A DNA stretch of 64,000 nt, from NCBI GenBank assembly GCA_018266055.1, contig JAFDYT010000013.1, positions 1 through 64,000 of the forward strand. Direction: 5' to 3'. A model generated the notes under the pieces. That model saw only the letters and a list, made by a program, of their open reading frames with translations, was not told where the DNA came from and made no database searches. Position 1 is the stretch's first letter, and every line of letters starts with the position of its first letter. The stretch is from Bacteroidota bacterium (GTDB lineage Bacteria > Bacteroidota > Bacteroidia > Cytophagales > Cyclobacteriaceae). Made by a program: the position numbers and the translations under genes. Shown here piece by piece: positions 36,101-53,136 of this stretch.

Positions 36101-36203
36101 AACGTTGATTTTTTTCGACCCCCACACTCCTCTATTCCATTACTAAAACAATTTACTTCATTTATTATTAACCATCCAGTATTATCCGATAACAAAACAA
36201 AAA

Positions 36204-36225
36204 CCCCCGACCTCACGGCCAGGGG
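36204..36225 (-). terminator. Probable intrinsic terminator after the gene at 36252
   Basis: On the minus strand CCCC-T-GGCC, a GTGA loop and GGTC-GGGG form a bulged stem followed by GTTTTTGTTTTG. It lies 26 bases past the stop of the 123-residue protein gene. Confidence 0.6.
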
Positions 36226-36251
36226 TAAACCAAACGAGATACGCTGTAAAA

Positions 36252-36623
36252 CTATTTCGTTTTTGCTGCGGCCGGTTTCAGGCGGCGCGTTTTGTACTCC
36301 GATACTTTTTTCAATCCCACGGCCTGCACTTCGTTGCTGTCTTTGCCAAACTGTGCCACCACCTGATCCTTGCTGTTGAGGATTGCATTGTGAAATGCCC
36401 ACTCGGCTTCCGTTGCATTGTCAAGCGCTGAATTGTACTGCGCTTCGGCCTGGGTTGCTTTTGTTCGCAACGCCACCATGTTGTCGTGCAGGGCCTGAAT
36501 GCGCGCTACCGAAAGCTCGCTCTTTTGGGGACTGTAGTTACCGATTGCCTTTAGCGCATCGAAGGTTTCTTTGTCTGAGTTCAATCGCTTTAAAGGCAGA
36601 CTACGACTTTGATTTTTTGCCAT
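36252..36623 (-). CDS. Small helical protein with basic ends, function unknown
   Basis: 123 residues, predicted as almost continuous helix ('LSVARIQALHDNMVALRTKA', 'AEAQYNSALDNATEAEWAF') with a basic N-terminus ('KNQSRSLPLKR') and a strongly basic C-terminus ('YKTRRLKPAAAKTK'). The segment 'QVVAQFGKDSNEVQAVGLKK' followed by 'SEYK' is seen in small uncharacterised proteins of other Cytophagales and Sphingobacteriales. No signal peptide. Its upstream region contains the phased repeat array (36697-37007); its basic helical make-up would fit a nucleic-acid-binding protein, but that is inference only. Confidence 0.75.
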   Translation of the reverse strand: MAKNQSRSLPLKRLNSDKETFDALKAIGNYSPQKSELSVARIQALHDNMVALRTKATQAEAQYNSALDNATEAEWAFHNAILNSKDQVVAQFGKDSNEVQAVGLKKVSEYKTRRLKPAAAKTK

Positions 36624-36796
36624 ACTGTTTTTTTTGTTTTTAGTTTACATATAGGTTTAAGTACATTATTGCAATGGCCTTGCGGCCGTTTTGCCATTCT
36701 GATGCCGCGACTTTTATTTTCGCTGGCTTTTTTTGATCGTCCCCTTCCTCCATTGACTCCGACCGTCTCCTAAATGCGCGCATCACTTTGTTTTCG

Positions 36797-37007
36797 TTCT
36801 GTCGGTCTTTTGCTACCTTCTGATCACTTTTGTTTTCGTTCTGACGATCTTCTGCTACGTGCTGATCAGCTTTGTTTTCGTTCTGGCAACCTGTGTTACG
36901 TTCTGATCAACATTGTTTACGTTCTGACAGCTTGTGTTACGTTCTAAACACTTTTGTTTTCGTTCTGACAGCTTATGTCACGATCTATTTACTTCCGTTT
37001 TGATCTA
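36797..37007 (+). repeat. Array of about eleven degenerate repeats with 20.6-bp helical spacing
   Basis: The core TTCTG (or one-base variants) starts at 36797, 36818, 36839, 36860, 36881, 36901, 36922, 36942, 36963, 36983 and 37003: steps of 20 or 21 bases, mean 20.6. Copies alternate between two types, GTTTTCGTTCTGA and GTTACGTTCTGAT, giving a 41-bp super-repeat. In the first three super-repeats the even copy leads into a TGATCA palindrome (36821, 36863, 36904; GCTGATCAGC at 36861-36870 is a 10-base palindrome). A further match, CCATTCTGATG at 36697, sits 100 bases (five steps) before the first. The mixed 20/21 step breaks any reading frame, so this is not coding. Two DNA turns per unit places all cores on one face of the helix. 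Confidence 0.85.
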
Positions 37008-37190
37008 AACCGCTCCTGCATGGGCCTTGCGGACCAGCGCTCGGTGCAGGTCACCGCGGATTAGATCAATACTTCCCTCGTTCCATCCGGATAAATCCGT
37101 TCTATGCATAAACTATAGGCAAGTGTCGTGCCAGCGGAAAAACAGCGAAATTTTCAAAATTTGGCCTATGCCAAGGTTGGTTTCGTTTCT

Positions 37191-37214
37191 AATCAACAAT
37201 AGACCCTGTTGATT
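37191..37214 (+). terminator. Hairpin with T-rich tail upstream of lspA
   Basis: AATCAACA (37191-37198) and TGTTGATT (37207-37214) form an 8-bp stem with an 8-base loop followed by TTCGTTTTATTTC. It could terminate a plus-strand transcript from the repeat region or act in the lspA leader. The stem is A/T-rich, so the call is weak. Confidence 0.35.
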
Positions 37215-37308
37215 TTCGTTTTATTTCGTCAAAAGAGATCTTTATAACAGTATATCTTGTAGCTACTTTAGTAATTTGTCCTTAGGTAACGAATACTCCC
37301 TTACAGTA

Positions 37309-51648: not shown

Positions 51649-53136
51649 ATGCAAAGGCTCAGTCTTAGTCAATCCTTACAACAAAAACTGTCTCCCCAGC
51701 AGATTCAGTACATTAAGCTGTTGCAGGTAACGACCGCAGAGCTTGAAACCCGGGTCGAAGAAGAATTGGAGCAAAACCCGGCATTGGAAGAGGGCGAGGA
51801 AGAAGAGCCGGAAATTCAACAAGAGGAAGAGCAGGAAGAGGAAACCACCGAGTCGGAAACATCGGAAGAGGCAGAAGCGACGGAATCTACAGAATCTTCT
51901 GAAGATATCGATCTTAAAGACTACCTGGGCGACGACGATTACTCAAGCTACAAAACCTATAATGACGATGGCGATGAGGAAGAGCGCGAAACCCCGATCG
52001 CAACCTCCTCCTCGTTGCACGAAACCCTGATGACCCAATTGGGATTTCTCGGGTTAAATGAAAAACAGACTGCTATTGGTAGCCAACTGATCGGCAGCAT
52101 TGAGGGCGACGGCTACATCCGCCGCGAACTGGAATCGATCGTGAATGACCTGGCATTCGCGCAGAGCATAGAAACCAATCTGGAGGAAGTAGAAAGTGTT
52201 TTGAAGAAAATTCAGACGTTTGACCCTGCCGGAATTGCCGCACGCAACCTGCAAGAGTGCTTGTTGCTGCAGCTCGATCGGATGGACAACGGCCAGGACG
52301 TGGATGTAATCGTTGGCAAACGAATCATCAGCGAATGCTACGAAGAGTTCACCAAAAAGCATTACCCGAAAATTTTAAAGAAACTGGATCTTGATGACGA
52401 AGATTACATCAAAGATGCGATTGAACTCATTGTCAAGTTAAATCCTAAACCTGGCGGGGAAACTTCCGGCGGATTGGTTAAAAACCAGTATGTCATTCCG
52501 GATTTTATTCTTACCAACAACAACGGCAAGCTTGAGGTCGTGTTGAATTCGCGCAATGCGCCCGATTTGAGAATAAGTCCCTCTTATACCGAAATGTTTA
52601 AGGCCTACGAAAAGAGCGACAAGAAAGACAAGAAGCTGAAAGAGACAGTTTCTTTTGTGAAGCAAAAGCTCGATGCTGCACGTTGGTTTATCGACGCCAT
52701 AAAACAACGCCAGCTAACGTTGATGCGCACCATGCGCGCCATCGTTGATTTTCAGTATGAGTACTTCCTCGACGGAGATGAATTAAAATTGAAGCCGATG
52801 ATTCTTAAAGACATCGCGCAGAAGATTGACATGGACATCTCTACAGTAAGTCGTGTGTCAAGCAGCAAGACCGTGCAAACCGACTTCGGCACCTTTCCGC
52901 TGAAATACTTTTTCTCGGAAGGAATCACAACCGACACTGGCGAAGAAGCCAGCAGCCGGGAAGTGAAGCAGTTTATCAAAGACCTGGTTACCAACGAAGA
53001 CAAAAACAAACCCTACTCGGACGAAAGACTTGAAGAGCTGCTGAACGAGAAAGGGTATGTGATCGCACGCCGCACCGTAGCCAAATACCGCGAGCAACTC
53101 AACATACCTGTAGCCCGTCTGCGAAGAGAAGTATAA
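51649..53136 (+). CDS. rpoN: RNA polymerase sigma-54 factor
   Basis: 495 residues. The glutamine-rich activator-contact region 'LSQSLQQKLSPQQIQYIKLL' (region I) comes first, then a strongly acidic Glu/Ser/Thr stretch (about 40-100, region II), the core-binding region ('LGLNEKQTAIGSQLIGSIEG', 'FDPAGIAARNLQECLLLQL') and the C-terminal HTH plus RpoN box 'VIARRTVAKYREQLNIP'. Sigma-54 needs AAA+ activators for open-complex formation; none is in this window. The stop is two bases before the next gene. Confidence 0.97.
   Translation: MQRLSLSQSLQQKLSPQQIQYIKLLQVTTAELETRVEEELEQNPALEEGEEEEPEIQQEEEQEEETTESETSEEAEATESTESSEDIDLKDYLGDDDYSSYKTYNDDGDEEERETPIATSSSLHETLMTQLGFLGLNEKQTAIGSQLIGSIEGDGYIRRELESIVNDLAFAQSIETNLEEVESVLKKIQTFDPAGIAARNLQECLLLQLDRMDNGQDVDVIVGKRIISECYEEFTKKHYPKILKKLDLDDEDYIKDAIELIVKLNPKPGGETSGGLVKNQYVIPDFILTNNNGKLEVVLNSRNAPDLRISPSYTEMFKAYEKSDKKDKKLKETVSFVKQKLDAARWFIDAIKQRQLTLMRTMRAIVDFQYEYFLDGDELKLKPMILKDIAQKIDMDISTVSRVSSSKTVQTDFGTFPLKYFFSEGITTDTGEEASSREVKQFIKDLVTNEDKNKPYSDERLEELLNEKGYVIARRTVAKYREQLNIPVARLRREV

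Follow-up and report, generated by a model that had tools for sequence, protein, structure and literature searches.

A tandem array with a period of 20-22 nucleotides and a neighbouring gene encoding a small helical protein very likely form one unit. The period of the array and its neighbourhood to the gene are kept between distant loci, whereas the letters of the repeats differ. With a somewhat less than even chance, the two may be the parts of an ancient, undescribed system occurring in at least six bacterial phyla. It would consist of a conserved small helical protein and an array recognised by its two-turn period (20-22 nt), with two-domain proteins tending toward super-repeats of 42/44 nt, as if one domain corresponded to one unit. 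If so, the sequence of the array would drift because recognition is by period, not by letters.

The array was noticed in a stretch of 64,000 bp from a Bacteroidota bacterium (the window, which here means this whole stretch). On the minus strand, it is situated upstream of a gene encoding a protein of 123 amino acids. The features of the locus, in the 5' to 3' order of the minus strand, are as follows.

37214-37231, minus strand: UAS-like element of the TTTCGTTTTATTTCGT type; the sigma54-type site follows about 97 bp downstream, a spacing resembling that in other copies from the genus
37120-37134, minus strand: sigma54-type -24/-12 site CTGGCACGACACTTG, then C, found as a pattern match
36997-37072, minus strand: 17-nt inverted repeat (36997-37013 and 37056-37072, 88%), a predicted gene-strand hairpin directly 5' of the array, fold z -0.8
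36782-37008, minus strand: the array
36624-36781, minus strand: leader from the array to the ORF, fold z of the window copy -1.1
36252-36623, minus strand: gene of the 123-aa protein, the partner of the array, with predicted helices 11-26 and 39-92 and a basic C-terminal tail
36196-36226, minus strand: terminator-like hairpin and T run 3' of the ORF, found by reading the sequence

The array comprises 11 units with steps of 20 or 21 bp and a 41-bp super-repeat. An earlier note on this DNA listed eleven core starts, all of which are correct, the steps being 21, 21, 21, 21, 20, 21, 20, 21, 20 and 20. The cores were described there as TTCTG-type; seven of the eleven are literally TTCTG, and the remaining four read TGCTG, TTCTA, ATCTA and ATCTA. 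In the autocorrelation of positions 36781-37015, z-scores are 10.4 at lag 41, 5.5 at lag 21 and 4.1 at lag 20, as compared with 1000 dinucleotide shuffles with maxima taken over lags 1-90. Lags 41 and 21 exceed every shuffle maximum and lag 20 exceeds the 99th percentile of the maxima, in agreement with the claimed periodicity. TRF reports a 41-bp unit with score 224, and no stronger periodicity is found in the window (lags 15-69, 200-bp stretches). The TGATCA palindromes are indeed present at 36821, 36863 and 36904. Two copies of GGCCTTGCGG also occur where they were noted, at 36676 and 37023. However, they do not bracket the array symmetrically: the low copy ends about 97 bp past the low end of the array, and the high copy starts about 15 bp past its high end. 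On the minus strand, a predicted GGCC-GCAA-GGCC stem-loop includes the low copy. The units of the window array have no significant dyad symmetry (p=0.90). A whole-genome search found no second copy of the array in its own genome, where the core pattern GTTTWCGTTCTG has seven matches, five of them inside the array. The DNA of the region has no match among 38 relatives. The earlier note overlooked the partner gene (36252-36623, minus strand), the sigma54-type site (37120-37134, minus strand) and the signs of structured-RNA transcription in the genus.

The partner protein from the window belongs to no Pfam or NCBIfam family. Its relatives have at best scattered weak matches of single members in NCBIfam, Pfam, PHROGs and PADLOC, and PADLOC applied to 62 family proteins yielded nothing more than that. 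The AlphaFold2 model (62 sequences, pLDDT 90) consists of a short helix 11-26, a 54-residue helix 39-92 and a basic tail. The model of a two-domain homologue is likewise all helical (pLDDT 89). Fold searches with both models gave no convincing match, the best E-values being 6.7 (PDB, one-domain model) and 0.043, to which no weight is given; the sequence profile against PDB gave a best E-value of 0.28. The length of the 54-residue helix is about 80 Angstrom and that of 21 bp of DNA about 71 Angstrom, which is arithmetic and not evidence.

An initial search found relatives of the protein in five of 58 genomes of the genus, including the genome of the window, and some genomes had several copies. 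Apart from the window, this search gave nine loci, and in eight of them an autocorrelation scan detected an array with a 20/21-bp period on the upstream side of the gene. The exception, L041 (the same locus as L050), encodes the closest homologue found (53% identity) and has no clear array, only a faint 20/41 signal. The spacing is kept at 20-21 bp in 11 of the 12 one-domain loci examined from the genus, the window counted, L041 again being the exception. One-domain members occur in six of 62 genus genomes, so the unit is sporadic.

A scan of genome contigs identified 104 relatives among 135 pattern stretches, and the best 80 of the 104 were retained. Among these 80, an array is present at most 1.2 kb upstream in 53 loci (identity at least 0.56 over 84 bp, lag 20-22 or 40-43); seven of the 80 have less than 600 bp of upstream sequence. 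Arrays were found in Bacteroidota (13 of 15 loci), Acidobacteriota (8/12), Chloroflexota (7/8), Cyanobacteriota (16/30), Verrucomicrobiota (3/7), Pseudomonadota (2/4), Ignavibacteria (1/1) and loci without an assigned phylum (3/3), where the phyla are our own assignment and many records are MAGs. Those seven short loci were dropped from a comparison of 1-kb tiles, together with seven genus loci already sampled or near-identical to such, all with arrays. Upstream tiles contain an array in 44 of 66 cases and other tiles of the same loci in 15 of 435 (Fisher p=1e-33, a nominal value since related species were kept among the 66). The counts are 51/66 and 29/435 at a threshold of 0.52, and 40/66 and 12/435 at 0.60, and for six control lags they are 0/66 and 2/435. 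One counted repeat, in L111, is 7-bp, and the 21-bp array there is visible farther upstream. In L107, a near-perfect 51-bp tandem repeat (identity 0.99) was observed downstream of the gene.

Similarity clustering of 513 ORFs from 72 loci revealed no universal partner gene; the biggest cluster occurs in 11 loci at varying distance and strand. A link to the neighbouring lspA gene was rejected, as L013 is the only one of 29 genus lspA loci with an array. This locus (genome G012, positions 2405-2700) has about 14 units of 21 bp upstream of an lspA-like gene, in a contig with no family match. A phage element was also rejected: 50,697 phage records gave no match, and of 44 pattern stretches in viral contigs none was confirmed. 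The plasmid search produced one Nostoc record. Some arrays are situated elsewhere: 14 of the 56 arrays in the loci are not beside the gene, ten of these 14 being cyanobacterial. Nostoc loci contain additional arrays, built of similar 21-bp units and lying at a distance from the family gene (L111, L124, L126, L127 and genome G463, L141-L146); in G463 the unit was matched at six places, two of them long arrays. In Nodosilinea and relatives (L118 1468-1709, L120, L123, L125), an array lies 3.3-4.5 kb upstream and none was detected beside the family gene.

The geometry of the arrays is nearly constant. In 51 one-domain arrays, 330 of 347 steps are 21 bp, 15 are 20 bp and two are 22 bp, with up to 16 units registered per array. 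Dyad symmetry at p<0.05 is observed in 22 of the 51 unit profiles. No half-turn period of 10-11 bp was found inside the units of 54 arrays. Across phyla, the search for a common motif revealed weak enrichment of CAATG/AATGC only, present in 11 of the 46 arrays against at most 8 in shuffles. Near relatives, for example Nostoc species, have unit sequence in common. The arrays of L071 and L073 have neither gained nor lost a unit and are 87% identical over 613 columns, and the sequence farther upstream is unalignable. Between L047 and L167, whose arrays are orthologous, the number of units differs by about four.

Profile searches reached homologues of 119-124 and about 250 amino acids (class and genus). 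Of 25 long loci, 16 encode a protein in which the domain was detected twice, and in the rest it was detected once; 23 long proteins align over the full length. An array is found beside the long homologue in 18 of 25 loci as compared with one of 29 genus lspA control loci (Fisher p=8e-8). It is upstream in 12 loci, and in six it starts 37-160 bp past the stop codon. The lags are 21/42, and 22 with 43/44 in L153, L155, L159 and L161. The excess of the two-unit over the one-unit lag is greater in 17 long loci than in 49 with one domain (p=0.011, relatedness ignored). No conserved RNA structure was found in nine leaders of long homologues. Between the array and the long-homologue gene, some 120 bp before the ORF, a AACGTGCCA box is common to L153, L156, L157, L159, L161 and L173.

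Candidate promoters differ between groups. In the genus of the window, a sigma54-type site, defined by what we take to be the -24/-12 consensus and represented in the window by CTGGCACGACACTTG, precedes the gene in nine of ten one-domain loci; the pattern scan found none in L041. The site is 16-128 bp upstream of the array in eight genus loci, and in L043 it falls between the array and the gene. The pattern has 21 occurrences on one strand in 709 kb of loci. UAS-like repeats are present by pattern some 80-120 bp above the site in seven of the ten loci, and a related form in the window; this element could serve as an activator site. Of 60 genomes from the genus, 57 encode sigma54, including that of the window. 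The window contains the DNA-binding domain of rpoN (sigma54) at 52651-53127 (plus strand), 15 kb from the sigma54-type site of the unit. In Acidobacteriota, sigma70-like promoters were found between the array and the gene in L051 (TTGAAA-17-TATGAT) and L058, and overlapping the array end in L061 and L080; in loci with these promoters the array is probably outside the mRNA. Sigma70-like promoters with score at least 7 occur in eight of 48 loci versus 4% of shuffles.

Signs of RNA structure come from the genus of the window. The post-array leaders of six copies other than that of the window share a predicted branched structure of 59 pairs with compensatory changes, 93.4% of cells being paired (82.8% in shuffles). 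Changes on both sides of a pair occupy 43 cells, as compared with 16.3 for shuffles and no more than 11 for slid structures; here cells are sequences, not events, the compensation mostly reflects one split (L047/L167 against the other four), and one alignment served both to derive the structure and to score it. Within two close pairs of copies, double changes are no commoner on the gene strand than on the opposite one, at 1 against 4 in one pair and 2 against 3 in the second. The whole leaders of ten genus copies have mean fold z -7.2 on the gene strand versus -4.0 on the opposite one, and alifold energies in sense and antisense are -110.9 and -65.0 for four copies, -103.1 and -68.1 for three others. 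The whole leader of the window is modest in this respect, z -2.4 in sense and -1.2 in antisense. By eye, the segments flanking the array look complementary in L044, L046 and L167, and such a helix could enclose the array. The test for an enclosing helix is noisy, with genus mean z -1.26 in sense and -0.29 in antisense (11 loci) and nothing outside the genus. A leader hairpin GGGCAGAACG after the array in L045, L047, L048 and L049 contains CAGAACG, the core of the window repeats.

Nothing outside this genus favours RNA. The mean z of 55 arrays from many phyla is -2.57 in sense versus -2.29, the sense value being lower in 29. No covariation within units exceeds the null in 45 arrays. The ratio of G-T to A-C mismatches in 28 arrays is 39:30 (p=0.34), with more G-T in 13 and more A-C in five. 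Alifold on orthologous regions of Lyngbya/Halomicronema, Zoogloea, Nodosilinea and Nostoc favoured neither side. Rfam 15 covariance models had no hit at the gathering score in 11 loci including the window, and one sub-threshold match, in L013.

What the array does is answered here by a preference. Just short of an even chance, in our estimate, is the possibility that the array forms the repeat domain within a structured RNA on which several copies of the small protein are assembled. It is preferred because the leader beside the array in the genus of the window bears signs of RNA selection. In the genus, transcription from the sigma54-type promoter would produce an RNA with the 5' hairpin, the repeat array, the structured leader, the protein ORF and the terminator. 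The array would act as the repeat domain of this RNA, and the small protein, with its long helix and basic tail, would dock side by side, one copy per unit, making a ribonucleoprotein. Counted against this are the weak fold and non-dyadic units of the window, the lack of strand bias and covariation across phyla, the position of the sigma54-type site in L043 and its lack in L041, and the unstructured leaders of long homologues. We know of no reason for an RNA to keep a 21-nt period.

On the other hand, the array may act as double-stranded DNA that offers a site every two helical turns, with the adjacent protein, or a different factor, assembling on one face. It would then be a partition, anchoring or nucleoid-organising site, and its transcription in the genus would be incidental. 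This is a serious possibility, though clearly less than an even one, and it comes close behind the RNA platform, since the period is 21 bp and arrays elsewhere have no strand bias. The dominant step equals exactly two turns of B-DNA, and many unit profiles have dyad symmetry. A DNA site also agrees with the absence of strand bias and covariation across phyla, with arrays on either side of the gene and with the Acidobacteriota promoters between the array and the gene or at the array end. However, one would expect a conserved protein to recognise a conserved motif, and no motif is widely common; no neighbour family exceeds 11 of 72 loci, and in the genus of the window a structured RNA adjoins the array. 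That the array is a mere satellite, slippage-prone DNA hitch-hiking with a patchily inherited gene, is improbable. The patchy distribution, the multiple copies, the arrays away from the gene, the difference between L047 and L167 and one Nostoc genome with further places bearing the unit of its array, one of them a long array, could be explained in this way. It does not explain why the array of L071 and L073 is intact with unalignable sequence farther upstream, why the period is nearly fixed across unrelated sequences, or why the association with the gene is far over background.

Since 21 nt equals seven codons, the array might encode a heptad-repeat peptide; indeed, the spacing is an exact multiple of three in most arrays and some have open frames across. 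Coding was rejected: steps of 20 and 21 bp are mixed in the window and each of the six frames contains two to six stop codons, L047 has 20-bp units and four long loci have lag 22, and a codon-phase signal at p<0.05 was observed in just four of 47 arrays. This explanation is thus refuted for the window and exceedingly improbable in general, and the earlier idea that spacing rather than coding is under selection gains support, the same pattern being seen across phyla. The pair could also be a toxin-antitoxin system, with the repeat RNA of the array as antitoxin and the small protein as toxin, which we consider quite improbable. As in ToxIN and related type III toxin-antitoxin systems, a tandem array precedes a small protein gene in most loci, the distribution is patchy and there are several copies per genome; ToxIN-type antitoxins vary in sequence and repeat number (PMC5086642). 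However, the repeat unit is 34-36 nt in the three ToxIN-family examples described there (PMC5086642), as against 20-22 nt and up to 16 units here. Moreover, the array is downstream of the gene in six loci, and the predicted long-helix protein has no match to a toxin family: kinship with ToxN, CptN or TenpN was supported neither by Pfam, nor by PADLOC with its weak single-member matches in 62 proteins, nor by a significant fold match (best PDB E-value 6.7). No Rho-independent terminator between the array and the gene was noticed when leaders were read by eye.

Type III toxin-antitoxin systems and the StbA/ParR partition sites are the nearest known things, and membership is established for neither. 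In the description of plasmid R388 (PMC3098194), StbA acts with stbDR, two sets of five 9-bp direct repeats with two-nucleotide spacers around a promoter, and the resemblance to that description lies in a small protein accompanied by direct repeats arrayed with constant helical spacing. Unlike stbDR, the arrays considered here have a two-turn period, their repeat sequence is not conserved, and the contigs are almost always non-plasmid. General searches of the family, sequence and fold collections yielded no sequence or fold relation to StbA. No partner NTPase of the ParMRC/TubZRC type was found by Pfam among the ten neighbouring ORFs of the window; ORFs of other loci were clustered by similarity only. 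As to plasmid iterons, Pfam detected no replication initiator gene among the ten ORFs at 28.6-43.4 kb. The earlier suggestions of iterons, a partition site, a nucleoid site or an operator are hypothetical. The large ornate bacterial RNAs OLE, ROOL and GOLLD are similar in being large structured RNAs, and OLE is reportedly a component of a ribonucleoprotein. In contrast to them, here there is a tandem array inside, no Rfam family at the gathering score, and RNA structure in one genus only.

Judging by the sequence, structure and family collections (Pfam, NCBIfam, PHROGs, PADLOC, Rfam, PDB) and by literature searched mainly by title and abstract opening, the gene-array unit appears to be undescribed, as the earlier note had supposed for an element of such form. 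The protein family, unnamed in the databases searched, is tied across phyla to an element conserved in geometry and hardly in sequence. Elements conserved in this way would be overlooked by sequence-based searches. If the protein assembles on the array, this would be a new mode of nucleic-acid recognition, by spacing. If the array is RNA, it would represent a new class of ribonucleoproteins with a repeat domain.
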